Source of the DNA: Kordiimonas pumila
Lineage (GTDB): Bacteria > Pseudomonadota > Alphaproteobacteria > Sphingomonadales > Kordiimonadaceae
NCBI RefSeq assembly: GCF_015240255.1
Contig: NZ_CP061205.1
Coordinates: forward strand, 3,396,501 to 3,460,500
Direction of reading: 5' to 3'
DNA length: 64,000 nt
Below, piece after piece: positions 45,415-64,000 of the stretch. Numbering within the stretch: position 1 is the stretch's first letter; each line of letters begins with the position of its first letter. A program made the position numbers and the translations under genes. The notes below the pieces were generated by a model. That model made no database searches and was not told the DNA's origin. It saw only the letters and a list, made by a program, of their open reading frames with translations.

Positions 45415-48021
45415 CTAGAACTTGTAGGTAACACCAACAGCAAAGGTACGACCAAGGTCATACTGCTCAACAATCTGGCCTTCCTGAGTCCACTCAGCTT
45501 TGTCGCCCAGAATGTTTTCTGCTTCCATTTTCAGCTCAACAATGTTGCTGCCGATTTCAAGCTCTTTGCGGTACACAAAGTTCAGCATCATTGGCGGCAC
45601 TTCATATTCATCCTGAACACCGTTGATGCCAACGCCAGACAGGCGCTTGCCAGTATAGTTCAACACCAAAGCGAGAGATTCACCGCGTTCAACATCTTCC
45701 CAACCAAACTGTAGGTTACCAAGCCAGTCAGACTGACCTTGCATAGAACGCACAAGATTGGTTGCAGTTGATGCAAAACTAGAGCTTGGGTCGATTATGG
45801 TTTCTGAATCGATATACGATCCGTTTGCACGAACATAAACTTCGCGGCTACCAAGCCAATCCCAACCTAACCAGTCCTGAAGTGGCAGGATTTTGTGAAC
45901 CTCAAGTTCCACACCTTTCAGTTCAGCAGAGTCCGCATTGATATAACCTTGAAGCGGGCCTTCACCAAGAATAGTGAATGTCTCTTCAATCGGATTACTG
46001 AACTCTTTGTAGAACAGACCCAGTGTTACAGATTCGCCTGCCGCAAAATACCATTCGAAGCGTGCATCATAGTTATTGATCTCGGTAATTTGCAGGTTCA
46101 AGTTACCGCGAACAGTCCGGCGACGCTCGTCATTGATAAACGGAGCAGATGACAGTTCCCGCATATCAGGACGGGTGATTGTCTGGCTGTAAGCAAGACG
46201 AAGTTGCATGTTATCAACAAATTCATACGTCAGTGTTGCAGATGGCAGCCAGTATTCTGCGTTCTGCGTTACCACCACGGGTGTATCTGTCGTACGGTCT
46301 ACAGTGGAGACAATCTGGGTTGAGTTTTCATACCGCATACCAAAGGCGGCCCGCAGCTTGTCTGTTACCTGAACGTCTGCCCCTAAATAGCCTTGCTTGT
46401 TTTCAAACGAAGCCGTGAAATAATCTGACGGGTCAAATTTTTCCGCCAGTTCAATGCCACCCGGAGCAATGTTTGCTGGGCCAAAGATAATTTCAGGCAC
46501 CAGTTCCCTAAGGTCGAAGTTTGCACCTGCAGGGAAGTCAAAGAAGTAGCGAACCACACCGTAGCTGCGTTCTTTATCTTCGTAAGTAAAGCCACCTTTT
46601 ATATCAACAGCGAAATCACCGATGCTCATTGGCTGGACAAAGTTAAAACCAGCCTCGTATGATTCATCATCAAGAGCACTGTATGATGTTGTATTGGCAT
46701 CAGACCGTGCAAGTGTGCGGAACACATCGTCGTTATCGTCAAAAACATAGGTGATTTCACGGCGCAGTGGTGCATCGCGGTCTGCTCGTGAATAGTTTAC
46801 ACGCCAGTCAAAATCCATATCCTGAAACATGCCATTATCACCAAACAGGGCGAATGTGTGCTCACCAGAAAGCTGGTTGGTTAAAACCTGACTTTCAGTC
46901 CAGTCTATATAGGAAAGCGTCCGCAGTTCATCTTTTTCTGATGCTGTGAAACCTTTCTGGATTAAAGATGTTTTCTTGGATTGACGCAGAACCATACTTG
47001 TAAGGTTCAGAGAGTTGTTTGCGTTAATCTCATACCCGAGGGACAGAATGCCATTCAGGTTAATTTCCATCTCTGTCTGACGCGTGCCACAGTCATCACC
47101 GGCACCGTCATAGCTGTCACACACTTCTGGAGAGAAGCTATAACGCTCAACAAGGCCAGCATTCGAGGTATTGAAACCCTTTTGAAAACCAAACTGGTTT
47201 GTTTGCTCAACATCATAAGTTACAGCTGCAAAAAAGCCCCATGCGCTTTCACTGCCAACATCATAACGGTTACCCCAAAGGAAGTTGAAACTACCACCGG
47301 GCAGGTTCTTTTCCTCATCGATAGACCAGATATTTGGCAAAGCTTCGCCTGCGGCTTCAAGTTCAGCAGGTGTCAGGCTCTCAAGCGTTACATCAGCCAG
47401 AATTTCTTTTGGAATATTCCGCATGGAACCGCCAAAACCCAGTATTTCTGAGCCAGAACCATCGTAGCTAAGGCCTTTTTTGAAGGTAGATGCTGTATTT
47501 ACCTTTGTGCCAACACCCAGTTCGAGCACAAATTCGTCAGGAATGGTTTTGGTTCTAAGGTCGATCACACCACCGCCAAAAGACGCCGGGTATTCAGGCG
47601 AGTAGGTTTTTTGTACCAGAACATTTTCGATCATTGCAGTCGGGAAAATATCCAGTGGCACAACGCGGCGAAGCGGCTCTGGGCTTGGAATGGAAGATCC
47701 ATTTAGAAGTGTTGATGAATACCTGTCACCAAGACCCCGTACAAAGACATATTTGCCGCCAACAACAGAGAGACCCGGCACACGCTGTAAGGCAACAGCT
47801 ACATCGCTGTCACCGGCTTGTGAAAAACTCTCACTATCAAGAATATTGGCAATTTCAGAGGTTGCGCGCTTTTCGTCGGGAATATATCGGCCCTGGACTG
47901 TAATTTCTTCAACGTCATTCCGGTCCTGAGCCGCTGTATCCTGTGCGAAAGCCTGCCCCGGCACCAAAAGAACAGTTGAGGCAAGAAGTGCGCTCTTAAA
48001 TTTATTGTGGTTCATTTTCAT
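45415..48021 (-). CDS. TonB-dependent receptor next to the T2SS operon
   Basis: The protein (about 868 residues) has a signal peptide ending GQAFAQD, a TonB-box region ([10 protein letters not shown]), a plug domain ('[28 protein letters not shown]') and a long barrel ending in [11 protein letters not shown]. The plug sequence and length resemble the large alphaproteobacterial receptors for carbohydrates or other complex nutrients rather than classic siderophore receptors. It follows the duplicated lipoprotein gene in the same direction and precedes gspC. The start could also be 48033. Confidence 0.92.
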
Positions 48022-48056
48022 TACGGCCACCATCAGCTTTCAAAATTTACGAGACA

Positions 48057-48108: not shown

Positions 48109-50985
48109 TTATTGGTTAAGCCAAACTGTCCAGCCGGCAGTCCAGTCGTTTGCAGCATTTTGAACCGCACCAACGTAGGTGGTTGCATCAAAGAAGCTGT
48201 TCACTGCACTTACGTCTGTCGCAGTTACGCCGTTCTCTGTTGCGCCGTTGATGTAGGTTTTGAAGGCTGCACCACCAGAAGTAGCTGTCAGTGTGTCTGC
48301 TGCAACAAGGTTGTTGCTTTGGCCAAGGAACCAGTCTTCCACACTAAACACATCGTCTGCACCGTCGTCTTTGAAGACTGTGGCACATGTCGTGCTCAGA
48401 AGTGTTGATTCCATTGTCAAGTCACCAGTGAGGGTCGTTGCATTGGCACCAGATACAGTGAAGGTAGCAGTTTGGTCGATATCAAGGCAGGCATCGCCAA
48501 AGTCAGCCACTACAATGTTGTAAAGGTTAGCTGCTGTACCTTCGCGGAGAAGGATACCGATGTCGCTTTCACCGCCAGCTTCGCCCGCACCCAGAACTGT
48601 CGCGTTAGCGATCATTGGATGTGCACGAGGCAGGAAGTCGTTACCGTCACCGTAGTTGTCAGCTTCAAAGCCTTGGTCTGTTGCAGGCTGGTTCGGGTTC
48701 TGAATGATCAGAACGTGCTGAACCTTACCACGCCAGCCCTGTGTCCAATCGAGGCTGTCATCGTCAGCGCCGGTTAGAACAAGGTGTTTAGCTTGCGCTG
48801 TACCACCGAAGAACTCAACCGCATCGTCTGCACCGTTGTGAACTTGCAGATAGTCAATCTCAGTTTCAGACCCAACGCCCTGGAACGCAATACCATTCAG
48901 TTCGTCGTCTGCTGTGATTGGGTTACCGGCATATATCACACGAGTGTAGAAAATCTGGCCGCTATCGTCAGTGTCATCAACACCACCGTAAAGGCCGCTG
49001 TCGCCTTCGCCTTCAGCTTCACAAGGTGTACCAACACCGTTACATGTATTGATCGTGGCACGGCCGTTGATCACAATACCACCCCAAAGAGAGGTGTCTG
49101 TGTCAAGATCGCGTGTATCAGGGTCAATCGCTGTAAAGGTTACTGGTGCATCTGCTGTACCGTTTGAGTTCAGTTTTGAACCACGTGTAACAACAAGGTA
49201 AGAAGAAAGGTCAGCACCCATTACCGTTACGCCAGGCTCGACAGTGAGCGTTGCCGCATCGCCAGTTGCAAGTGGGCTAGAAGCGTCTGGGCCCATATCC
49301 ACACCAACAACAACCTTGCCTGAAAGAATATAATCAAGGCCGGCAACCAGTGTCAGGTCTTCCGTGATAGTACCAGATACAACACAGGCACCGTCAGAGT
49401 TTTCAGTTGTAGCTTCTGGACACTCTGGTGTTGGGTTCAGGCCGTATGTCCAGCCTAAAGTCCAGTTATCAGAGGCAGAAGTACTTGCAACCGCACCGAT
49501 ATAGTCTGTTGCAACAAAGAAAGTATCAACCGCACTTACGTCTGTTGCTGTAACAGCTGTTTCCGCAGTGCCATTAATAAAGTTGTTAAAGAGTGATGTT
49601 GCACCCACAACGTTGTTGGACTGGTTAGTGAAATATGCCTCAAGATCAAACGCATCATCTGCGCCGTCATCTTTAAACACAGTCTTACAGTTGCTAGAGA
49701 ACAAGGTAGACTGGATTGTAAGATTACCAGTTAGGTTTGTTGCACTTGAACCAGCGTTAGTGAAAGTTGAAGTCTGGTCAATATCAAGGCAAGCATCACC
49801 GAAGTCAGAAACAACAGTGTTATAGATATTCGCGCCAGTACCTTCACGCAGCAGCATACCAATGTCACTTTCGCCGCCCTTGCTGTAAGAACCAACAATT
49901 GTGAAGTTAGCAAGGCGTGGCTTTGCACGTGGCAAGAAGTCGTTACCATCACCGTAGTTATCAGCTTCAATACCTTGGTCAGATGCAGGCTGCGCCGGGT
50001 TTTGAATGATCACAACATGCTGGGCTTTACCGCGCCAACCTTGTGTCCAGTCAAAGCCATCATCATCAGCGCCCGTAATAACAAGGTGTTTTACTTGTGC
50101 TGTACCACCAAAGAACTCAACGCCGTCATCCGCGCCGTTGTGTACATGCACATAATCGATTTCTGTGCCTGAACCAACGCCCTGGAACGCAATACCGTTC
50201 AGCTCGTCATCAGCGGTGATCGGGTTACCCGCATATTTAACCTGTACATACTTGAATGTACCACTGTCGTCAGTATCATCATCGCCGCCGTAAAGACCAC
50301 TATCGCCTTCACCTTCAGCTTCACAAATTCCAGCACCGTTACAGGTGTTGATGGAAGCACGCCCACTGATAACAATGCCGCCCCACTCTGACGTGAAAGG
50401 CTCCTCAAGGGCCAAGCCGCTGTATGATGCAGCTGGCGTAACACCCAGTTCACTTGCCAAATCAAGATCAAGTGCTGATGTAAAAATAATGGGGGAAGAA
50501 GCAGTACCCGCAGCTTCAATTTTTGAGCCACGAGAAATTACCAGAAGGTCTGTTTTCGAAGGGCCGTAAATTACAGTACCTGGTTCGATTGTAAGTGTCG
50601 CCGGGTCGCCTGCAGCGGCAGTACCGTCTGCACCAACGTCAACACCAATAACCACTTTACCGGAAAGCTGGTAAATATTACCTGAAGTTAGCGTCACGTC
50701 GTTTGTAACAGTACCAGAAAGCGTACAGTGTGTCTGATCGCCTACTGTTGTAGCAGATGTACCTGATGGGCAGTCACCCGCAGATGTTCTCTCGAAACCA
50801 CCACGGTCAATTTTAGACGATGGTTCTGGTTCAGGTTCTGGTTGTGGTTCAGGAGTGCCTGTACCTGGGTTTGGTGCAACTGTGCCTGGCGATGCCAGCT
50901 CAGTGCTATCGTCGCCGCAAGCGACGAGCGCGCAAGCAGCAACCGCTGCCAGTAATGTATTCTTTAGAATCTGAAGTTTTGTCAT
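48109..50985 (-). CDS. large lipoprotein with an internal duplication, T2SS-substrate candidate
   Basis: The 958-residue protein has a lipoprotein signal with lipobox LVAC (Cys at residue 23) and mature start CGDDS, a Pro/Glu-rich spacer (about 40-55), and two homologous halves, residues 72-521 and 522-958. Each half has Cys-x-VSGTIT-like openings, VEPG/IEPG stretches, 'GLYGG-x-DDTDDSG', 'NPITADDELNGIAFQGVGS', 'NYGDGNDFLPRA' and 'DACLDIDQT', which suggests a beta-helix rich in Asp, perhaps calcium-binding. I do not know a characterised family. In Caulobacter the T2SS exports a lipoprotein (ElpS) to the surface or medium, so this protein is a good candidate substrate. ATG at 50985 has GGGGA 7 bp upstream. 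Confidence 0.75.
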   Translation of the reverse strand: MTKLQILKNTLLAAVAACALVACGDDSTELASPGTVAPNPGTGTPEPQPEPEPEPSSKIDRGGFERTSAGDCPSGTSATTVGDQTHCTLSGTVTNDVTLTSGNIYQLSGKVVIGVDVGADGTAAAGDPATLTIEPGTVIYGPSKTDLLVISRGSKIEAAGTASSPIIFTSALDLDLASELGVTPAASYSGLALEEPFTSEWGGIVISGRASINTCNGAGICEAEGEGDSGLYGGDDDTDDSGTFKYVQVKYAGNPITADDELNGIAFQGVGSGTEIDYVHVHNGADDGVEFFGGTAQVKHLVITGADDDGFDWTQGWRGKAQHVVIIQNPAQPASDQGIEADNYGDGNDFLPRAKPRLANFTIVGSYSKGGESDIGMLLREGTGANIYNTVVSDFGDACLDIDQTSTFTNAGSSATNLTGNLTIQSTLFSSNCKTVFKDDGADDAFDLEAYFTNQSNNVVGATSLFNNFINGTAETAVTATDVSAVDTFFVATDYIGAVASTSASDNWTLGWTYGLNPTPECPEATTENSDGACVVSGTITEDLTLVAGLDYILSGKVVVGVDMGPDASSPLATGDAATLTVEPGVTVMGADLSSYLVVTRGSKLNSNGTADAPVTFTAIDPDTRDLDTDTSLWGGIVINGRATINTCNGVGTPCEAEGEGDSGLYGGVDDTDDSGQIFYTRVIYAGNPITADDELNGIAFQGVGSETEIDYLQVHNGADDAVEFFGGTAQAKHLVLTGADDDSLDWTQGWRGKVQHVLIIQNPNQPATDQGFEADNYGDGNDFLPRAHPMIANATVLGAGEAGGESDIGILLREGTAANLYNIVVADFGDACLDIDQTATFTVSGANATTLTGDLTMESTLLSTTCATVFKDDGADDVFSVEDWFLGQSNNLVAADTLTATSGGAAFKTYINGATENGVTATDVSAVNSFFDATTYVGAVQNAANDWTAGWTVWLNQ
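48112..50772 (-). repeat. internal tandem duplication of the lipoprotein gene
   Basis: Repeat 1 covers about 49423-50772 and repeat 2 about 48112-49422. They encode residues 72-521 and 522-958, aligned over nearly their whole length with small indels. Parts are close at the DNA level (for example the segments encoding NPITADDELNGIAFQGVGS), other parts are well diverged, so the duplication is old with some stretches conserved or converted. Confidence 0.8.
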
Positions 50986-51128
50986 TGTTTTCCCCGTACG
51001 GTGCTCAATGGGCCTGGAAATACGTTTATGTTTAAGAGCCAAGCGAACGGACCAGCTAATTAACCAGCCAGCTCCCGATGCACGGGGTAATTAACAATTG
51101 TTTCAGTTTGGTTGCGGTTATTTGCACC

Positions 51129-53290: not shown

Positions 53291-54034
53291 ATGACAACTT
53301 CTATGATTGAGACAACAAACATCATCTCCAAACATGACATGCTGAAACAGCACTCGCTGTTTCAATCAATGCCGCCTGCCTTATTACAAGCACTCAGTCA
53401 GGCTGCACAAGAAGTTAGCTATGAAAAAGGTAATGTCATTTTCCTGCAGGATGACGCATCAGAATGGTTTTATCTTATCAAGTCTGGTTGGGTGAAACTA
53501 TTCAGAGAAACGTTGGAAGGTAGTGAAGCCGTTCTGGACATGCTGACAAGTGGTCATATTTTTGGGGAAACTGCGATTCTAGACGGCGACATACACACCG
53601 TGAGCGCGGCAGCCGCAGAACATGTAACCCTGCTTCGCTTACCTGCAAGCTTGCTTAAAAAAGCTGTTGGTGAAAGCCATGATGTTGCGCTTGCTATGCT
53701 GGCCTCACTTTCCCGCCAGCGTAAACGCCAAACTCAGGAAATTGAAAGCCTGAATATGCATAATGCACCCCAGCGTATTGGCTGCTTTATGCTACGTCTA
53801 TGCAATCTCAGTAACACTGAGCCATACGAGATGACACTGCCATACGACAAATCTCTCATTGCCGCCCGTCTTGGCATGCAGTGTGAAACATTTTCGCGCG
53901 CTCTCAACAAACTGCGCAAAGAAACAGACATCACCGTTCAGGGGTCAAGTGTGACGATACCTAACCTTGAAACACTGTCTAACTACGCTTGCAATAGCTG
54001 CTCTAACGAGTTTCCGTGCTCAGACCTGCACTAA
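53291..54034 (+). CDS. Crp/Fnr family regulator with a C-terminal cysteine cluster
   Basis: The 247-residue protein has an N-terminal cNMP-type sensor domain (GNVIFLQDDASEWFYLIKSGWVKLF), a dimerisation helix and a winged helix. The recognition helix reads E199-T-F-S-R203, the E-x-x-S-R pattern of FNR that reads TTGAT half-sites. It has no N-terminal FNR cysteine cluster. Instead its last residues carry C234-x2-C237-x5-C243. A C-terminal three-Cys Fe-S cluster is known in Bacillus Fnr, so an oxygen-sensing role is plausible. FNR boxes precede the neighbouring hemN and ompW. It ends 3 bp from a converging stop. Confidence 0.9.
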   Translation: MTTSMIETTNIISKHDMLKQHSLFQSMPPALLQALSQAAQEVSYEKGNVIFLQDDASEWFYLIKSGWVKLFRETLEGSEAVLDMLTSGHIFGETAILDGDIHTVSAAAAEHVTLLRLPASLLKKAVGESHDVALAMLASLSRQRKRQTQEIESLNMHNAPQRIGCFMLRLCNLSNTEPYEMTLPYDKSLIAARLGMQCETFSRALNKLRKETDITVQGSSVTIPNLETLSNYACNSCSNEFPCSDLH

Positions 54035-54037
54035 CGC

Positions 54038-54427
54038 TTATAGACCTGTCTTGTTTTTATTGCGGCTCATCCAGTCCCAATCGATCAGGCTTGGATTTGT
54101 TATATATTTATATGGCTCCGTGAGCACCGCAAGCACATAGTCAAAATGCAGCTTTTTATGATGTTTTGGCAAACAGGCAGCAAGTGCAGGGCCAATAGAG
54201 TTCAAGCGTTTTTGATGAAAAACAACAGCATACACAGCCGTTTCAGACTGGTTACTTGTCGAAAACTCGATCGACATACCTGTTAGGCTTTCTTCTCCTG
54301 CGCGCCAAATCTCCAGAAAAGGAAAACGGTTCTCATTGGCTTCAAGCACATAGTTACACACCCGCACATAATTAGCCAGATACTCTTCCAAACCTGAAAC
54401 ATTTATATTTCCGCGTGCATCAGCCAT
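54038..54427 (-). CDS. hypothetical protein
   Basis: The 129-residue protein is mixed alpha/beta with no signal peptide or membrane segment; key features are 'YLANYVRVCNYVLEANENRFPFLEIW' near the start and 'IDWDWMSRNKNKTGL' at the end. The globular size and 'LEANENRFPFLEIWRAG' opening may be a PAS- or similar fold, but I cannot place it in a family. It converges with the Crp/Fnr gene. ATG at 54427 is preferred to GTG at 54439. Confidence 0.5.
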   Translation of the reverse strand: MADARGNINVSGLEEYLANYVRVCNYVLEANENRFPFLEIWRAGEESLTGMSIEFSTSNQSETAVYAVVFHQKRLNSIGPALAACLPKHHKKLHFDYVLAVLTEPYKYITNPSLIDWDWMSRNKNKTGL

Positions 54428-54483
54428 CCGAGTACCCACCCTTCATAAGACCCTGATAGTAAACAAAAAGAAAATTGGCGTAT

Positions 54484-54555: not shown

Positions 54556-55935
54556 GTGCGAGCAAATCATTATAGCGCTTTACTCAAACGCAACCAAAAC
54601 ATACCACGATATACAAGCTACCCAACAGCGCCGCACTTTCATGCAGGCATTAATGGGCAGGTCTATAAAACATGGCTGCAAGACATCGAAGCAGACGCAC
54701 CGCTTTCGCTATATATCCATATACCCTTCTGCAAAAAACTATGTTGGTATTGTGGTTGCCACACCAAAGCCACCGCACTTTATCAGCCGGTCAGCATATA
54801 CCTTGATTATCTTAAAAAAGAGATCACCTTAACGGCAGCCGAGATGCAGGAGTCATCTAAAAGAAAGGTCAGCCATATTCACTTTGGCGGCGGGTCGCCA
54901 AGTTATTTGTCGGCTTCAGACTTTACCAGCCTGATGGACCATATAAACCATGTATTCTCTGTTGATACCGAGGCAGAAATTGCCATAGAACTAGACCCTC
55001 GTGAAATCACAGAAGCCAAAGTGGCGGCCTATAGTAAGGCAGGCGTTAACCGCGCCAGCCTCGGTGTGCAGGATTTCCACATCGATGTGCAAAAAGCCAT
55101 TAACCGCGTGCAGCCCTTAAACACCGTTTACCGCGGCCTTGATTTACTACGACAATACGGCATTAAGGCCTGCAACATGGACTTGCTATACGGCCTGCCT
55201 GTGCAAACATCAAAACACATTCGGGACAATATCGCCTATGCCCTTATGTTAAAACCCAGCCGAATATCCCTGTTTGGTTATGCTCATGTACCATGGATGA
55301 AAAAGCATATGCGGCTTATTGATGAAATGGCCCTGCCCGGTGCCGAAGAGCGGCTTAGGCAATTTGACCTTGCGCGAAATGCGCTTATTGAAGGTGGTTA
55401 CCAGCAAATTGGGCTGGATCACTTTGTACAAAAAAGCGACCCCCTAGCCCTCCAATATCAGACAAAAAAAATACACCGTAATTTCCAAGGCTACACAGCC
55501 GATACAGCAGAAAACCTTCTCGGCTTTGGCGCTTCAGCTATTAGCAGCCTGCCTCAAGGCTATAGCCAGAACAAACCTGACATCAGGGCGTATTACAAAG
55601 CTCTTGATGCTGGCGACCTGCCGGCAACGCGCGGTATAAAACTAACACCGGAAGATCACATAAGGCGGCTTATTATTCAGCATATCATGTGCTACGGGGA
55701 GTTTAGTCTGAAAGATTTCACTGAAAAACGGGATAGCAGATCCAGTTCTCTTGCTCATATTGCCTTTCAGCAGGCTAAAATAATGCTTCAAGAGCTTGCT
55801 GTTGACGGGCTAATCGATTTTTCGGAACAGGACAAAGCCTTCACTGTAAAAATTGCACAAGCAAGCCGGCTTGCGGCATCTGTCTTTGATAGTTACCTAC
55901 AGCCAAAACAGGCTCAGCATTCTCAGATTGCTTAA
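54556..55935 (+). CDS. hemN: oxygen-independent coproporphyrinogen III oxidase
   Basis: The 459-residue radical-SAM enzyme has C59-KKL-C63-WY-C66-G-C68, the Fe-S motif CxxxCxxC plus the extra Cys of true HemN, 'HFGGGSPSYL' and 'ELDPREITEAKV'. It oxidatively decarboxylates coproporphyrinogen III without oxygen for heme. GTG start has AAGGA 7 bp upstream. An FNR box precedes it and a terminator follows. It supports heme supply to the cbb3 oxidase at low oxygen. Confidence 0.95.
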   Translation: MRANHYSALLKRNQNIPRYTSYPTAPHFHAGINGQVYKTWLQDIEADAPLSLYIHIPFCKKLCWYCGCHTKATALYQPVSIYLDYLKKEITLTAAEMQESSKRKVSHIHFGGGSPSYLSASDFTSLMDHINHVFSVDTEAEIAIELDPREITEAKVAAYSKAGVNRASLGVQDFHIDVQKAINRVQPLNTVYRGLDLLRQYGIKACNMDLLYGLPVQTSKHIRDNIAYALMLKPSRISLFGYAHVPWMKKHMRLIDEMALPGAEERLRQFDLARNALIEGGYQQIGLDHFVQKSDPLALQYQTKKIHRNFQGYTADTAENLLGFGASAISSLPQGYSQNKPDIRAYYKALDAGDLPATRGIKLTPEDHIRRLIIQHIMCYGEFSLKDFTEKRDSRSSSLAHIAFQQAKIMLQELAVDGLIDFSEQDKAFTVKIAQASRLAASVFDSYLQPKQAQHSQIA

Positions 55936-56005: not shown

Positions 56006-56632
56006 TTAGAACCGGTATGCGAGACCTAGACCAAAAACCCAAGGGTCCAGATCAACATCAGCTGTAACAGCGCCGCCGTTAATGCTTGCATCTGTATTCA
56101 GGAAAAGCTTTTTCACATCGGCGTTAATAGCCCAGTGATCATCCAGCCCAACATCGACACCAGCCTGCAAGGCATACCCAAAGCCGTTGCTATATTTTAT
56201 ACTGGCCACATCACCCGGATTATTGTTGTAAAAGAACGTGTAATTCAAGCCAGCACCCACATACGGGCGAACCTGCCCTCCCGGGTTAAAATGATACTGC
56301 GCCAAAAAGGTTGGTGGCAGCACCCAAACATGACCTAGGTCCAGATCACCAAGAGCGGTGCCTGTTGCCCCCATAGAGTGTTTGGTGGTCGCCAAAATCA
56401 GCTCAGTGGCAAAATGGTCTGTCCAGAAATAGCTGATATCAAGCTCAGGCATAATTTTACTGTCAGCTGTAACCGCACCACCAATAGAAACTGTACTGCT
56501 TTCATCTGGCGCAACGTCAATAAGGCGCAGACGAACAAGCCAAGGGCTTTTATCTTCTGCAATGGCCGCACCAGCTGCCAACTGAAGCGCCGCCGCACAT
56601 GTAAGAACTTTAAAAAAGGGGGAGATAGACAT
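56006..56632 (-). CDS. ompW: OmpW family outer-membrane protein
   Basis: The 208-residue protein has a signal peptide (VLTCAAALQLAAGAAIAED) and an eight-strand barrel: 'PWLVRLRLIDVAPDE' near the N-terminus, 'DISYFWTDHFATELILATTKH', 'PYVGAGLNYTFFY', and terminal FGLGLAYRF. OmpW is FNR-controlled in enteric bacteria, and an FNR box lies 66 bp upstream here. ATG at 56632 has GAGG 8 bp upstream; the longer frame to 56656 is less likely. Confidence 0.92.
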   Translation of the reverse strand: MSISPFFKVLTCAAALQLAAGAAIAEDKSPWLVRLRLIDVAPDESSTVSIGGAVTADSKIMPELDISYFWTDHFATELILATTKHSMGATGTALGDLDLGHVWVLPPTFLAQYHFNPGGQVRPYVGAGLNYTFFYNNNPGDVASIKYSNGFGYALQAGVDVGLDDHWAINADVKKLFLNTDASINGGAVTADVDLDPWVFGLGLAYRF

Positions 56633-56691
56633 CTGTTTTTCCTCTCTGTTAATCATTGAGGAAAATATGCATTTAAAAAGGGCTTTTAACC

Positions 56692-56734: not shown

Positions 56735-56878
56735 TTATTCTTCGTCGTCCAGTAAAATTCTGTGAGCCGCCCCTTCAAGGTCGTCATACTGGCCGCTTTT
56801 CATACACCATAAAAATGCTCCCAGCCCTAGAAAGCCAAGCCCTAATGCAATGGGTACCAGATATAAAAGTGCACTCAT
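56735..56878 (-). CDS. ccoS: cbb3 oxidase assembly protein CcoS
   Basis: This 47-residue protein begins MSALLYLVPIALGLGFLG, has one membrane helix followed by WCMKSGQYDDLEGAAHRIL and an acidic end DDEE. The 'SGQ-Y/F-DDLEGAA-x-RIL-D' motif is the CcoS signature. Its ATG overlaps the ccoI stop in ATGA. It is the last gene of the cco cluster and helps insert metal cofactors into the oxidase. Confidence 0.93.
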   Translation of the reverse strand: MSALLYLVPIALGLGFLGLGAFLWCMKSGQYDDLEGAAHRILLDDEE

Positions 56879-59169
56879 GATTTTTTCCTTCCCAAAGTAA
56901 GCCGAAAGGCATTCATGATAACAATCAGCGACGAACCAGACATGGCAGCGGCAGCCACCATAGGGGTAACATATCCCATAACCGCCATTGGTACCGCAAC
57001 AATATTGTAGAGAATCGCAAGAGCAAAGTTCTCTCTGACCAGCGCATTTGAACGACGGGCCACAAGGAGTGTATCATAAACAGGCATTAAACGCTCGCCC
57101 TGAAACACAATATCGGCGGTATTCTGGGTTATATCAACCGCGCTTGACGGTGACATGGATGCATCAGCAGCAGCAAGAGCTGGCGCATCATTCAGGCCGT
57201 CCCCCACCATTAGGACAGACCGGCCTTTTTCTTTCAAGGCTTTAAGCTCTGCGCATTTTTCAGCCGGTGTTACTTCGGCAATAATGCGCTCGATACCCAG
57301 CCTGCCGCCTATAATGCCAGCAACTGCTTTTCTATCGCCAGACAGCAAAATACAGTCAAGCCCTGCCGCTTTGAGGCGGGTAATGGTGTCCACGGCATCA
57401 CTACGTAACTGATCTGCAAAGGTAAAACGCTTTTTGGTCTGACCACCGACCCACAAAAAAAGCTCCAGCACAGTGTCTGTACCACGTGTGCCACTTTCTG
57501 TGCCATCTGTGCCATTTTTTGTGCCGTCTGTGCCACACCATGCTCGGCTGCCAACTCGTACTTCTTGCCCATCATAAAAAGCAGAAAGCCCCTTACCTGG
57601 ATGTTCTTTTACCTCAAGAGTGATCAATTCACCCGTGTAGGCTTCGGCAAGGGCTTTTGAAAGCGGGTGCCTGCTATTGGCGGCAAGAGACGCTGCCAAT
57701 TTCAGCTCAGCAGGACTATAGCCAGCGGGAAGCAGTTCTGGCCTCCCAACAGTAAGCGTACCGGTTTTGTCGAACACAACGGTATCAATACCTGCAAGGC
57801 GTTCCAGCGCATCACCAGATTTTAACAGCACACCATTTTTCAAAAGCACACCACTTGCCAGCACTTGCACAACAGGCACCGCAAGCCCGAGTGCACAAGG
57901 GCAAGTAATGATCAGCACTGTCACAGCGTGCAATAGCGCCACCTGCCAGTCAGCGCTGGCCAGTAACCACCAGCCTGCAAACGTGGCAAAACCCATAATA
58001 TGTACCACAGGCGTATAAAGAGCTGCGGCTTTGTCGGCAATACGGACATATTTAGCGGCGCCTTGTTCAGCAACTTCCATCATACGAACAATGGCGCTAA
58101 GCAAACTGTTTTCGCTGGCCTTTGTCACTTCTATATCGACGGGGGCCGTAAGGTTAAGGGTGCCAGCAAACACGTCTGTGCCAACACCCGCATGAAGCGG
58201 TATGGTTTCGCCGCTAATAAGCGACATATCCATGTCAGTTTCACCTGCTGTTATAATGCCGTCCGCCGGGAAGTTTTCCCCTGCTGTGACAAGCACCTGC
58301 ATACCGCTTTTAAGCTGGCTTATAGGCACCCGCTTTAGGGCACCAGCCTCTTTAACAGCGGCCATACCAGCCAGTTGCGACAACAGCCGGGATGCAGAAG
58401 CCCTTGCTTTTCCTTTTGCCCGCGCATCCAGATACCGGCCAATAAGCAGAAAAAACAGCAACATAACGGCGGAATCAAAATAAACATGATCACCGTGACG
58501 GATCGTTTCTGAAACACTCATGACAGAGGCTAAAATCACAGCAAGGGAAATGGGCACATCCATGTTTGTATGGCCACCCCTGAGCGCCGCAAAGGCAGAC
58601 CTGAAAAAAGGTTGCCCTGAATAAAGCACAATAGGTAAGGCAATAAGGGCAGAAACCCAGTGGAAAAAGTCGCGCGTTGCAAAACCCATGGTTTCAGCTG
58701 TGCTTGACCACAAGCCGACGGAAATAAGCATCAAGTTACCCGCTGCAAAGCCAGAGGCTGCGATAGCTTTAATTAAGGTTTTTTCCGTGTCGGCACCGCT
58801 ATTTTCCTTTTCAGCATCAAAAGAAAACAGCTTGTAACCAAGCTTACTCACTTCGGCGGCTAAAGCGTCACCACGGCTTTTTTCGCCTGTCCATGAAAAG
58901 GCAAGGCGTTCTGTTGTCATGTTAACGCGGGCGGCGGTTACATCAGGCTGCGCAGCAAGGGCATTTTCAATCAACCGGATGCAAGAAGCACAGTGGATAC
59001 CCTCTACTGCCAGCTCTAGCTGGTAGGTCCCATTCCCAAGATCCTGCGCAAGGGCACTATATTGGCCTTCTGCGCTTATACTCTCTCTTGCTGCACAGGC
59101 GGCTTCACAGCCACTACAACAGAAGTCACCCGTTTTACAATCTTTACCGCACTGTTTACACTGTGTCAT
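56875..59169 (-). CDS. ccoI: copper-translocating P-type ATPase CcoI/FixI
   Basis: The 764-residue ATPase has an N-terminal cysteine-rich segment (FCCSGCEAAC), a heavy-metal domain with C60-A-S-C63, membrane helices, the CPC motif at 423-425, the phosphorylation site D467 in DKTGT and 'GDGLNDAPALAAAD' late on. It supplies copper for the cbb3 oxidase. An insertion of short GT-rich repeats lies in the nucleotide-binding domain at about 545-564 (see repeat). It overlaps ccoH and ccoS. Confidence 0.95.
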   Translation of the reverse strand: MTQCKQCGKDCKTGDFCCSGCEAACAARESISAEGQYSALAQDLGNGTYQLELAVEGIHCASCIRLIENALAAQPDVTAARVNMTTERLAFSWTGEKSRGDALAAEVSKLGYKLFSFDAEKENSGADTEKTLIKAIAASGFAAGNLMLISVGLWSSTAETMGFATRDFFHWVSALIALPIVLYSGQPFFRSAFAALRGGHTNMDVPISLAVILASVMSVSETIRHGDHVYFDSAVMLLFFLLIGRYLDARAKGKARASASRLLSQLAGMAAVKEAGALKRVPISQLKSGMQVLVTAGENFPADGIITAGETDMDMSLISGETIPLHAGVGTDVFAGTLNLTAPVDIEVTKASENSLLSAIVRMMEVAEQGAAKYVRIADKAAALYTPVVHIMGFATFAGWWLLASADWQVALLHAVTVLIITCPCALGLAVPVVQVLASGVLLKNGVLLKSGDALERLAGIDTVVFDKTGTLTVGRPELLPAGYSPAELKLAASLAANSRHPLSKALAEAYTGELITLEVKEHPGKGLSAFYDGQEVRVGSRAWCGTDGTKNGTDGTESGTRGTDTVLELFLWVGGQTKKRFTFADQLRSDAVDTITRLKAAGLDCILLSGDRKAVAGIIGGRLGIERIIAEVTPAEKCAELKALKEKGRSVLMVGDGLNDAPALAAADASMSPSSAVDITQNTADIVFQGERLMPVYDTLLVARRSNALVRENFALAILYNIVAVPMAVMGYVTPMVAAAAMSGSSLIVIMNAFRLTLGRKKS
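57478..57537 (-). repeat. in-frame 21-bp minisatellite inside ccoI
   Basis: Units of TGTGCCATC (9) plus TGTGCCATTTTT (12) alternate, giving a 21-bp period over 60 bp. The protein reads GTDGTKN, GTDGTES, GTRGTDT, three heptads. The segment sits between the motif ending in SRAWC and 'LELFLWVGG' in the ATP-binding domain, where homologues are usually short. Confidence 0.8.
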
Positions 59170-59687
59170 TTAACAAGCACTAGCCGTTCAGCCATCTGGA
59201 AAGTCGCGTCTGGCTTTTCCGCAAAAAACCGGACTTCCCACTGGCCAGATAAAGGAAAAACTACATCTGCACTATAAACACCTGCACCACGGGCATCCAG
59301 TGGGAAAGCAAAATCATAGCCAGATTGCGTTGGGCGAAACACGGAAGCCATTACAGCCGCATTTTCAACTGGTTTTCCGGCCTTATCCTGCAAGGTAAAA
59401 ACCATATTCCCCTCTAGGGCAGAGGCAACAGGGTTGAATGTTACGGTGCCGGCCCAGCCTGTGTGGTGCATCTTCTCGGCGGCGGCTATCGTATCGTTAT
59501 AGTCGAGGCCCTTTTGGTAAGCATGCTCTGTTACAACGCCGGTATGGGTTGTAACAGCAATGGCAACAAACCCGGCACTGATCATAATAAGCACCACAAA
59601 AAATGCTACAAAATACCACGGTATCCAACGGTCAGATGGCCGCGGGCCAGATAGAGGCACTTCCGTGTTTTGGCGTGGCTCCTGCAC
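59166..59687 (-). CDS. ccoH: cbb3 oxidase accessory protein CcoH/FixH
   Basis: The 173-residue protein has one N-terminal membrane helix (WYFVAFFVVLIMISAGFVAIAV) and a periplasmic domain with 'YNDTIAAAEKMHHTGWAGTV' and 'RGAGVYSADVVFPLSGQWEVRF', the FixH pattern. It helps the oxidase assemble. It overlaps ccoG by one base and ccoI by 4 bp. Confidence 0.92.
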   Translation of the reverse strand: MQEPRQNTEVPLSGPRPSDRWIPWYFVAFFVVLIMISAGFVAIAVTTHTGVVTEHAYQKGLDYNDTIAAAEKMHHTGWAGTVTFNPVASALEGNMVFTLQDKAGKPVENAAVMASVFRPTQSGYDFAFPLDARGAGVYSADVVFPLSGQWEVRFFAEKPDATFQMAERLVLVK

Positions 59688-61102
59688 TATTGTTTCCCAC
59701 TTACAAAAAGGGTTTCATACTCTTCCCGTGCTTCAGTCTCTTTTTCCTGAAGCACAAACCTAATATCACTTCGTGTTGTTTCTGGCTTTGGCGCAAACGC
59801 AAACACCCGGAAATGCCCAACACTATCAGCAAAAACCAGTAAGGAGCCTGCATCAAGCTCGCCCGCACCTTGTGCTTTAAGTGTGAGACCCGTCAAGCCT
59901 TCTGCGCTCAGGCTAAAAATTCTGTCTTCCTGTGTTTTATTCAAAATTTTAATATCATACCCATTTCGAATATCGCCGTTTGAGAGCTGCACAAACATGG
60001 GGTTTCTATCGTGCAGAACATGTAATTCTGTCTCGCTTCTGTTCAAAAGCCCAAACAGAATAGCGCCGCCAACAACAGTCATAATCGCTATGTAATAAAA
60101 GGTTCGAAGCCTAAACAGGCTAAAATATTCTGGCTTTCCTTCTTTTCGACACTCCTGATTATGAGGCGTGTCATAACGGATAAGATCAGGCGGCAATTCA
60201 AGCTTGTGCATAATGTCATTACAGGCATCAATACAAAGGCCACAAGCAATACATTCCATCTGCAAGCCATCGCGAATATCAATACCAACCGGGCACACCT
60301 GTACACAGGCAGTACAATCGATGCAGTGACCGCGCCCTTCCCAGCTCTCGCCTTTTTTATGCTTGCCGCGCTGTTCACCGCGCAGTTCATCATAACCAAT
60401 AACAAGGGTGTCTTTGTCAAACATGGCTGACTGAAACCGCGCATAAGGGCACATATAGATGCACACCTGCTCGCGAGCAAAACCAGCCATTACATAGGTG
60501 GAAAGTGTTAAGGCAATAATCCAGCCAAGCACAGACCACGGCACATCCAGATGTACTATCTGCTCAATCAGGGTTGGAGCATCATTAAAATAAAACACCC
60601 ATGCACCACCGGTTAGCATGCCAATAACCAACCAGGCACTATGAGTTAGGCCAAGCTTCCAAAGCTTTTCGAAAGACCACGGGGCCTGATAAAGCCTTTG
60701 CCGCTTGGCACGGTCGCCTTGCACAATACGCTCTACCCACACAAACAGGTCTGTCCACACGGTTTGCGGGCACGCATACCCACACCAGACACGGCCCAGC
60801 AAACTGGTTACCAGAAACAACCCAATGGCCGCCAGAATAAGAAGCCCGGTAAGATAGTAAACTTCCTGTGGCCATATCTCGATAAAAAAGAAATAGGCGC
60901 GCCGGGCTGGCATATCGATAAGGATAGCCTGATCAGGCGCATGAGGGCCGCGGTCCCACCTGATAAACGGTGCAAGATAATAAATACCCAGCAATGTTAC
61001 CATAGACAGCCATTTGATCTTGCGAAATTTCCCCCAAACACGTTTGGGGAAAATCCGTTCTTTTTTAACAAATAGTTTTAGGGGGGCCGCAGTGTCAGTC
61101 AT
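59687..61102 (-). CDS. ccoG: cytochrome c oxidase accessory protein CcoG/FixG
   Basis: The 471-residue membrane ferredoxin has 'GRVWCGYACPQTVWTDLFVW', two [4Fe-4S] motifs (CIDCTACVQVCP and CIACGLCIDACN) and a C-terminal Ig-like domain. It acts in copper reduction during cbb3 assembly. It follows ccoP after 9 bp. Confidence 0.95.
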   Translation of the reverse strand: MTDTAAPLKLFVKKERIFPKRVWGKFRKIKWLSMVTLLGIYYLAPFIRWDRGPHAPDQAILIDMPARRAYFFFIEIWPQEVYYLTGLLILAAIGLFLVTSLLGRVWCGYACPQTVWTDLFVWVERIVQGDRAKRQRLYQAPWSFEKLWKLGLTHSAWLVIGMLTGGAWVFYFNDAPTLIEQIVHLDVPWSVLGWIIALTLSTYVMAGFAREQVCIYMCPYARFQSAMFDKDTLVIGYDELRGEQRGKHKKGESWEGRGHCIDCTACVQVCPVGIDIRDGLQMECIACGLCIDACNDIMHKLELPPDLIRYDTPHNQECRKEGKPEYFSLFRLRTFYYIAIMTVVGGAILFGLLNRSETELHVLHDRNPMFVQLSNGDIRNGYDIKILNKTQEDRIFSLSAEGLTGLTLKAQGAGELDAGSLLVFADSVGHFRVFAFAPKPETTRSDIRFVLQEKETEAREEYETLFVSGKQ

Positions 61103-61111
61103 ACTCTGATC

Positions 61112-61984
61112 CTATTCCCCACCGCCAAGTGAATGAACATAAACTGTTAGCTGGCGAATAGTGCTATCGCTTAAGCGGCCATCCCACGCCGGCATAATAC
61201 CGTGTTTTGGGTTTCTTATTTGGGCAACAATATCACTCTTGCTGCCGCCGTACAGCCAGATAGCATCGGCAAGTTTGGGGCCACCCAACTCCTGCACACC
61301 AACACCCGCTGAACCGTGACAAACAGAGCATTGCTCGTCAAAGATAGCTTCACCCGCTTCGGGAAGCGCCTCACCGTGCGCCACCGCATAAACATAATCG
61401 GCCACTGCTTGAATGTCTGCGGTGTCCATAAAGCTGCCAAAAGCAGGCATTTCATTAAACCGGGCTTCATCGTGACCAGACCTGACACCATACCGCAGTG
61501 TCTGTTCAATCGCATCAATATCACCGCCCCACAGCCAATCGTCATCATTCAGGTTCGGGTACCCACTAGCACCCGCACCGCCTGTACCGTGGCACGTAGC
61601 ACAGTTATCACCGAACGCTGCCTTACCGCCTGCAAGCGCAAAAGCATACAGGCTTGGGTCTTCTTTAATCTCGGCATACGACGCCTGATCAAACCGACCT
61701 TGATAAACAGCTTTACGGGCCACAATCTCTGCCTGAGCTTCTTTCAACTGTTTGTACTGGGTCCAGCCCTGTGAGCCTTCTGTACCACCCCGTTCACCAT
61801 CGCCAGACAGCGTTGGCCACGCCGGATAGACAACCCAGTACCCTATGGCCCATATGATGCACAGGTAAAAGACAATCAGCCACCAGCGCGGCATGGGGTT
61901 ATCAAGTTCCTTGATACCGTCCCATTCGTGACCCGTTGTTTGAACGCCAGATATTTTATCAATTTCATTCTGTTTTTTAGTCAT
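61112..61984 (-). CDS. ccoP: cbb3 cytochrome c oxidase subunit III (diheme cytochrome c)
   Basis: The 290-residue protein has one membrane helix (WWLIVFYLCIIWAIGYWV) and two heme-binding sites, C128-A-T-C131-H132 and C219-S-V-C222-H223. Met ligands appear in 'RFNEMPAF' and 'HGIMPAWD'. It carries electrons into subunit CcoO/CcoN. Its ATG overlaps the ccoQ stop in ATGA. Confidence 0.96.
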   Translation of the reverse strand: MTKKQNEIDKISGVQTTGHEWDGIKELDNPMPRWWLIVFYLCIIWAIGYWVVYPAWPTLSGDGERGGTEGSQGWTQYKQLKEAQAEIVARKAVYQGRFDQASYAEIKEDPSLYAFALAGGKAAFGDNCATCHGTGGAGASGYPNLNDDDWLWGGDIDAIEQTLRYGVRSGHDEARFNEMPAFGSFMDTADIQAVADYVYAVAHGEALPEAGEAIFDEQCSVCHGSAGVGVQELGGPKLADAIWLYGGSKSDIVAQIRNPKHGIMPAWDGRLSDSTIRQLTVYVHSLGGGE

Positions 61985-62133
61985 TTGTCATCCTCCGCTA
62001 AAGGGATGAATTTATAAGATTCCATTTGTTCTTTGGCTTTGGGCCGATAAGCCCAGCCTGCTATCAGCAGGAAAACCGTGAAGAAAAATAAAAGGCCTGC
62101 CATGCCAGCATGCTGTGAAAGCCAGTCTATCAT
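61981..62133 (-). CDS. ccoQ: cbb3 oxidase subunit IV CcoQ
   Basis: This 50-residue protein ([19 protein letters not shown]..., ending PLAEDDK) has a single membrane helix and '[19 protein letters not shown]', the usual CcoQ end with R-P and F-x-x-I/L-P. It overlaps ccoO and ccoP in ATGA junctions, showing translational coupling. CcoQ stabilises the oxidase complex. Confidence 0.93.
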
Positions 62134-62864
62134 TTGTCCTCTCCCTGCACTGAAGGCGCTTCATAGTCTTGAAGCTCTGCCATGGTGCCCAGCACTTGCA
62201 GATAAGCAATAAGTGCATCAAGCTCTGTCGTATGGTTTTGGCCGTCAAAGTTACGCATGGTTACCTTGCCGTAACGCTCAGCCAAGCCATCGTGATAATC
62301 GCTTTCGTCTGCTGCCTGAGCATACGCATCGCGGCTCGCGAACTCGATCATCTCGTCTGTGTAGGGCACACCCACCATACGCAGGGCTTTCATATCCTGC
62401 CCTATGTCATCAAGGTTAGCGCCGCGTTCCGCCAAATGGGGGTATGGTGGCATAATGCTTTCTGGCACCAGATCTTGCGGCCTATGCATATGCTGCACAT
62501 GCCAGTCATCAGAATATTTGCCGCCAACACGGGCAAGGTCTGGCCCTGTGCGCTTTGACCCCCACTGGAACGGGTGGTCATACATGCTTTCTGCTGCAAG
62601 CGAATAATGACCGTAACGCTCTACTTCATCCCTGAGCGGGCGAATTTGCTGGCTATGGCAGTTATAACAGCCCTCGCGGACATATACATTCTGCCCAGCA
62701 AGCTCAAGCGGTGTATAAGGCCGCACGCCTTTTACTGGCTCAATCGTTGTTTCCACCCTAAAAAGTGGTACGATTTCGATTAAGCCACCAACAGAGATAG
62801 CTAGCACAATGAAAATAAGCAGCAGGATGGAGTTTTTCTCCAGTTTTTCATGATGTTTAAGCAT
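62130..62864 (-). CDS. ccoO: cbb3 cytochrome c oxidase subunit II (monoheme)
   Basis: The 244-residue protein has an N-terminal membrane helix ([20 protein letters not shown]), heme c motif C66-Y-N-C69-H70 in '[19 protein letters not shown]' and '[18 protein letters not shown]' with a late Met ligand (SIMPPYPHL). Size is normal for CcoO. It overlaps ccoN by 8 bp. Confidence 0.96.
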
Positions 62865-64000
62865 GGGCTTTCTCCCCTACTTTTGTCTTCATAGGCACAG
62901 CGTCACCCTTAACCGTTTTAATCAGGTTATAAGCCATGATCAGCCCGCCTGTGAGGAACAGAATGCCCCCAAGCGCCCTAATGAGATAGAAGGGATGCAT
63001 GGCCATAACAGTTTCAACAAAGCTATATTGCAGGAAGCCAAGTTCATCATAAGAACGCCACATCAGACCCTGCATAATACCGGACACCCACATGGCGGCA
63101 ATATAAAGAACAATACCAATCGTTGCGATCCACAGATGCATATTTACAAGGCGCATGGAATAGAGGCGCTGTTTTTTCCACAGCACTGGCACCATATGGT
63201 ACACAGCCCCAAAGGTAATGAACGCCACCCAGCCAAGCGCACCAGAATGTACGTGACCAATGGTCCAGTCAGTATAATGAGAAAGCGCATTCACTGTCTT
63301 GATAGACATTAAGGGGCCTTCAAACGTGCTCATACCGTAGAATGCGAGGGATATAATCATGAACCTGAGAACCGGGTCTTCGCGCAGTTTATGCCACGCA
63401 CCAGACAGGGTCATCATACCGTTGATCATACCACCCCAAGACGGCATCCACAGCATGATAGAGAAGGTTGCCCCAAGGGTCTGCGCCCAATCAGGCAAGC
63501 TGGTATAATGCAAATGGTGTGGCCCCGCCCAAATATAGATGAAAATCAGGCCCCAAAAATGGAGGATAGACAGCCGGTAACTGTAAACAGGCCGCTCTGC
63601 CCGCTTTGGTACGAAATAATACATAATGCCCAAAAAGCCCGCTGTCAGGAAAAAGCCCACAGCGTTATGGCCGTACCACCACTGAATAAGGGCAGACTGA
63701 ACACCGCCCCACACAGGGTAGCTTTTAGCCCCTGTCAGGGACACCGGCACAGAAATATTATTCACGAGGTGTAGAACAGCAACCGTGACAATAAAGGCGA
63801 GGAAGAACCAGTTACCCACATAAATATGGGGTTCCCTGCGGTTCTTTAGCGTCATCAGAAAAACAATCAGATACGCCACCCACACAAAAGTGAGCCAAAG
63901 GTCTGCGTACCATTCAGGCTCGGCATACTCTTTTGCCTGCGTTACCCCTGTTACATAGCCTAGTGCCGCCAAAACGATGAAAAGCTGGTAACCCCAAAAA
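62857..64000 (-). CDS. ccoN: cbb3 cytochrome c oxidase subunit I, 3' part
   Basis: The frame is open to the right edge, so about 381 C-terminal residues are present; the N-terminus lies outside. '[21 protein letters not shown]' and '[20 protein letters not shown]' carry copper-B ligands, and '[12 protein letters not shown]' the heme ligands. The catalytic subunit reduces oxygen with high affinity and pumps protons. It heads the operon, so its promoter is outside this window. Confidence 0.95.

Follow-up and report, generated by a model that had tools for sequence, protein, structure and literature searches.

What does a protein of the FNR type sense when the cysteines that bind the cluster of FNR are not at its N-terminus? 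Classical FNR has three N-terminal cysteines (C20, C23 and C29 hold the cluster in E. coli) and one more near residue 122. The regulator P0001 of Kordiimonas pumila, encoded in the 64,000-nucleotide stretch of DNA analysed here (the window), has no cysteine N-terminal to residue 165 in its whole 247-residue sequence, and so the N-terminal ligands of FNR are absent from it. Its cysteines are C165, C171, C198, C234, C237 and C243, the last three of which form a tail, C-x2-C-x5-C, with the spacing of the E. coli triad (E. coli numbering as in the preliminary description). Both parts that mark the Crp/Fnr superfamily, a cNMP-type sensor domain and a Crp helix-turn-helix (HTH), are present by fold comparison of the predicted structure and by Pfam, which places cNMP_binding at residues 42-125 and HTH_Crp_2 at 161-231, over the cut-off in each case. 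A preliminary description of this DNA had given the gene, its coordinates, the ETFSR recognition helix, the missing N-terminal cysteines and the C-terminal triad, all correct on direct reading of the sequence, and had likened the triad's spacing to that of E. coli FNR, with which it agrees. It had overlooked C165, which is placed by the structural model in helix 159-170, the first of the DNA-binding domain. In the same model the tail is of fair confidence (block means of 87 and 76), a measure that says nothing on metal. The features are collected in Table 1.

Table 1. Features of the regulator locus (window positions unless a contig is named)
Feature	Position	Strand	Basis or remark
Crp/Fnr-family regulator P0001	53291..54034	+	ATG start, 247 aa
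C165 codon, candidate fourth ligand	53783..53785	+	Cys in 41/41 triad-bearing homologues
Recognition helix ETFSR (199-203), FNR-type E-x2-S-R	53885..53899	+	sequence; E199, S202 and R203 in 41/41 triad-bearing homologues
Tail C234-x2-C237-x5-C243	53990..54019	+	sequence (codons C234 53990-53992, C237 53999-54001, C243 54017-54019, read directly); directly after predicted helix 226-233; invariant in 25/25
133-aa ORF, family unassigned	54038..54439	-	tblastn in 16/20 loci L004-L023 and 4/4 of L033-L036
Perfect FNR-type box TTGACAATGATCAA	54484..54497	.	centre 66 bp ahead of hemN start
hemN, oxygen-independent coproporphyrinogen III oxidase	54556..55935	+	NCBIfam TIGR00538 over cut-off
ompW-type outer membrane protein	56006..56656	-	Pfam OmpW
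Perfect FNR-type box TTGATAAAAGTCAA	56692..56705	.	centre 42 bp ahead of ompW start
ccoI-ccoH-ccoG-ccoP-ccoO-ccoN, cbb3 oxidase and assembly	56875..63972	-	Pfam/NCBIfam for ccoI (heavy-metal ATPase), ccoG, ccoP, ccoO, ccoN; ccoH by position only; ccoN extends past window end
Perfect box upstream of cco operon, outside window	G000:C1:3461599-3461612		

Some match to P0001 was found in 27 of the 29 genomes searched in its family, and 21 of the 29, the source genome counted, carry a triad-bearing homologue. Four further loci came from one scan of named genomes, all of them Alphaproteobacteria or Micavibrio MAGs; the protein of one, L034, is identical to that of genome G251, which belongs with P0001's own genome in the Alphaproteobacteria. 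In the 25 orthologues aligned, P0001 among them, C165, C234, C237 and C243 are invariant, while C171 and C198 are not, and a one-off mutation is ruled out as the origin of the triad. The C-terminal site had been called unusual in a Gram-negative; it is indeed present, but it is clade-wide and not an isolated oddity.

A class-wide search covered 386 genomes, 73 of which had a match at E ≤1e-30; 90 of the 96 matches listed were taken in (30 loci from the search itself and 60 fetched) and six were left out. The homologue set has 121 distinct proteins, with P0001's own locus as L001. The tail triad is present in 41 of them, here called class I, with pair identities that fall to 18%, and every one of the 41 has a cysteine at 165. 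A second group of 15, class II, has four tail cysteines spaced approximately C-x2-C-x7-C-x7-C and never C165, so four cysteines are kept in both classes. Among the other 65, C165 occurs in nine, and where relatives lack tail cysteines, position 165 is for the most part A, S, C, N, G or E. Five columns alone, C165, F201, C234, C237 and C243, combine near-invariance in the 41 with being uncommon in the 65. The nine exceptions are of several kinds: in L057, L058 and L139 the cysteine tail is broken or re-spaced, L106 has no tail yet is placed inside a class I clade, and L092, L115, L128, L134 and L135 have no cysteine tail, the last four being placed in a tail-less group and L092 being unplaced, so that a cysteine at 165 also occurs alone. 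The 65 also include L121, which falls inside class II with one cysteine missing. Read by pattern, two later matches add a triad with a cysteine at 165 (L215) and a cysteine at 165 with a tail of x6 spacing (L203).

Some further relatives are of interest in their own right. L086 (genome G380), one of the 65, has a tail with seven cysteines and no C165, and is a possible further variant. Long class II frames of 522-574 residues with four tail cysteines are found at L024, L026, L027, L030, L031, L032 and L196, and all three that were scanned with Pfam (L024, L026 and L031) have a NIT (nitrate and nitrite sensing) domain at the N-terminus. The two loci examined, L217 and L218, adjoin MFS transporters, possibly NarK-like, and a MoaA-type protein, and L218 has two perfect FNR-type boxes. 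Among 397 Pseudomonadota genomes 23 matched at E ≤1e-44, and none of the seven outside Alphaproteobacteria has the triad. In a search for plasmid relatives 73 records matched, and the one examined, the first of 40 listed and from Methylovirgula, has a CDS that ends ahead of the tail.

How often the tail arose is harder to say. The labels need five changes on the tree for the triad, two for the four-cysteine tail and six for C165, so the conservation is strong but the independent events are few; for co-occurrence of triad and C165 the starred branches give two independent pairs, which is not significant (sign test, p = 1). A second, smaller tree has classes I and II as sisters (support 78, not starred), and this allows a single origin of the cysteine tail with a later swap of the fourth ligand. 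The P0001 group and Bacillus Fnr are not joined in the tree, and a joint clade is not rejected (p-AU 0.299), the Bacillus row being a provisional sequence on a long branch; the Bacillus and CRP rows, both long branches, are paired with each other. The tree thus gives no support to a recent transfer from Bacillus and no ground for rejecting one. We hold it to be evenly balanced whether Alphaproteobacteria evolved their own C-terminal [4Fe-4S] oxygen sensor near the DNR/FtrB branch and apart from Bacillus, the fourth cysteine ligand having changed place between the opening helix of the HTH domain in class I and the tail in class II (where some members are fused to a nitrate-sensing NIT domain), which would be a third way of wiring an iron–sulphur cluster into the Crp/Fnr fold.

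The DNA around the gene bears on what the protein might control. The preliminary description had taken recognition to be of the FNR type, and the E-x2-S-R residues and a respiratory set of FNR boxes at hemN, ompW and the cco operon uphold it. The cco box is 70 bp ahead of a 243-residue membrane protein, TauE/SafE-like by eye, that heads the operon. Other perfect boxes precede genes that resemble, also by eye, uspA (67 bp), hpf (192 bp), a rhodanese gene (117 bp) and pal (120 bp). Genome-wide the exact pattern occurs 17 times and its reversed control 7 times, and 10 of the 17, inside ORFs of more than 150 residues, are probably there by chance. When one mismatch is allowed, the window holds 7 matches where chance predicts 7.36, and only its two perfect boxes were used. 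The window scan, no better than chance, gave just a two-mismatch site ahead of the P0001 gene as an autoregulatory box; in four MAG loci, L033-L036, a perfect box is found just ahead of the regulator.

The boxes recur with the regulator. A set of 26 orthologous loci was chosen (L004-L023, L033-L036, L055 and L056, in which L005/L006 and L033/L034 are near copies), leaving out L001 as the window, L054, whose protein is the same as that of L034, the remoter triad or C165 loci and short fetched loci. A perfect box is present in 25 of the 26, against none for the reversed pattern and a mean of 0.74 loci for shuffles, and there are 32 perfect boxes in all (shuffle mean 0.76, reversed pattern 0). 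Of the remoter triad or C165 loci, L057 and L065 are box-less and L058, L059, L061 and L073 have at least one. Across the genus, 18 of 19 genomes have more boxes than reversed-control sites, though by a small margin in G009, G011, G020 and G023, and G013 has 8 boxes against 9 for the control.

The order regulator, 133-residue ORF, box, hemN is conserved in most loci of the genus. Of 20 family loci of about 3.7 kb each, 15 have hemN beside the regulator, and L022 and L023 carry ccoI instead. In L033-L036 the regulator adjoins ccoN, O, P, G, H and I with a perfect box on both sides. The 133-residue ORF has no Pfam match and no NCBIfam match over the cut-off; an alignment of 11 of its sequences has ten invariant columns. 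Elsewhere in the window a 977-residue protein that by eye has two long similar halves (48109-51042, minus strand) adjoins one that looks like a TonB-dependent receptor (45415-48033).

P0001 is probably a dimeric Crp/Fnr activator with an oxygen-labile [4Fe-4S] cluster in its DNA-binding domain, held by C165, C234, C237 and C243, that switches on cbb3 oxidase, hemN and ompW when oxygen is lacking. Here we infer the type of metal, the response to oxygen, activation and the geometry of the site. C165 would contribute a ligand from helix 159-170 and the other three would come from the tail that follows the final helix. As long as oxygen is absent and the cluster intact, it would fix the tail against the C165 helix and orient the HTH domain for TTGAY-N4-RTCAA, and P0001 bound there would activate these targets. 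Oxygen would destroy the cluster and abolish DNA binding, and the shift between monomer and dimer known from classical FNR would probably play no part in this. Four invariant cysteines, a C-x2-C plus two, would fit zinc equally well, and a structural Zn(Cys)4 site might anchor the tail on the DNA-binding domain with the signal sensed elsewhere, for instance as a ligand in the cNMP-like pocket. Such a zinc site is unlikely, however, on two indirect grounds: the genome's only protein of FNR specificity goes with an oxygen-type target set, and the cluster-bearing Bacillus Fnr (provisional sequence) has two ligands at the aligned C-x2-C.

The choice of signal draws on the rest of the genome, a single contig of 4.04 Mb in which two proteins have a Crp HTH over the cut-off. 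The second is CRP-like and has no N-terminal cysteine triad, so neither of the two is an N-terminal-cysteine FNR, and P0001 is the single FNR-type protein there. Of the 29 family genomes 11 or more carry an FNR with N-terminal C-x2-C-x7-C (five further loci are outside this count), which could read the same boxes, so the C-terminal type accompanies FNR in some species while it seems to be the sole FNR-type regulator in the source genome. That a [4Fe-4S] or heme site senses nitric oxide and not oxygen, as in DNR/NnrR, is quite improbable. It would suit the closest solved sequences to P0001, which are 3FX3/3H3Z and DNR, and Fnr and Dnr of D. shibae have binding sites in common (PMC5398030). The COX1-family proteins of the genome, however, are CcoN and one with CtaD as its best NCBIfam match, and since no NorB-like protein is among these matches, oxygen is favoured over nitric oxide; the predicted targets, cbb3, hemN and ompW, also argue against nitric oxide. 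According to the same paper D. shibae FnrL is an iron–sulphur oxygen sensor that activates cbb3 and usp genes, targets that overlap the set predicted for P0001. A thiol-disulphide switch through the tail cysteines like that of CprK or FixK2, the latter oxidised at Cys183 (PMC12937710), is the least probable, for though C-x2-C pairs could form disulphides, four invariant cysteines, with a fourth in the tail where C165 is missing, exceed what a dithiol needs.

If an oxygen-labile cluster is indeed present, the consequences go beyond this locus. A 2026 review has two types of iron–sulphur FNR, a Gram-negative one with an N-terminal cluster and a monomer-dimer switch and a Gram-positive one with a C-terminal cluster (PMC12937710), and a literature search of listings and abstract openings, with subscription papers mostly outside its reach, found no alphaproteobacterial FNR with C-terminal cysteines described. 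That division would no longer hold with a conserved Gram-negative clade whose site is C-terminal and made of cysteines only; such a clade would also provide a second testable case of cluster control from within the DNA-binding domain, and would explain low-oxygen control in genomes seemingly without FNR.

P0001 may be compared with several known systems. From classical FNR, FnrN and FnrL it differs in having its first cysteine at 165, and its score against NCBIfam NF008365 (classical FNR) is 61.3 bits, below the cut-off of 228; the FNR features found are the E-x2-S-R helix and the neighbouring FNR boxes, to which binding is predicted. DNR, FtrB and 3FX3 (Ruegeria/Silicibacter pomeroyi), and not classical FNR, are nearest by sequence, and because of this the data do not suggest that the cluster simply moved within FNR, as had first been thought. 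Their alignments with P0001 stop short of the cysteine tail, and the match to NCBIfam NF006901 (FtrB), at 96.6 bits, is below the cut-off of 211. Class II proteins, several fused to NIT, share a cysteine-rich C-terminal tail with P0001 but have four cysteines in it and lack C165. The likeness to Bacillus Fnr noted at the outset holds in that Fnr of B. subtilis and B. cereus, whose [4Fe-4S] cluster works with the oligomeric state unaltered, is also a Crp/Fnr protein with C-terminal tail cysteines, there known and in P0001 presumed to be [4Fe-4S] ligands. The Bacillus ligands are C227, C230 and C235 (C-x2-C-x4-C) with D141, according to PMC3520743, whose numbering fits the provisional Bacillus sequence used for alignment. 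In that alignment C234 and C237 fall on C227 and C230, the third tail cysteine comes one residue later (x5 against x4), D141 falls on S153, and C165, 12 positions past the D141 position, falls on a Bacillus serine. The candidate to consider as fourth ligand is very probably C165, and not the residue at the D141 position. As C-x2-C-x4-C and the aspartate, two defining features, are absent, membership of the Bacillus type is not claimed for P0001, though by analogy it may work like Bacillus Fnr.
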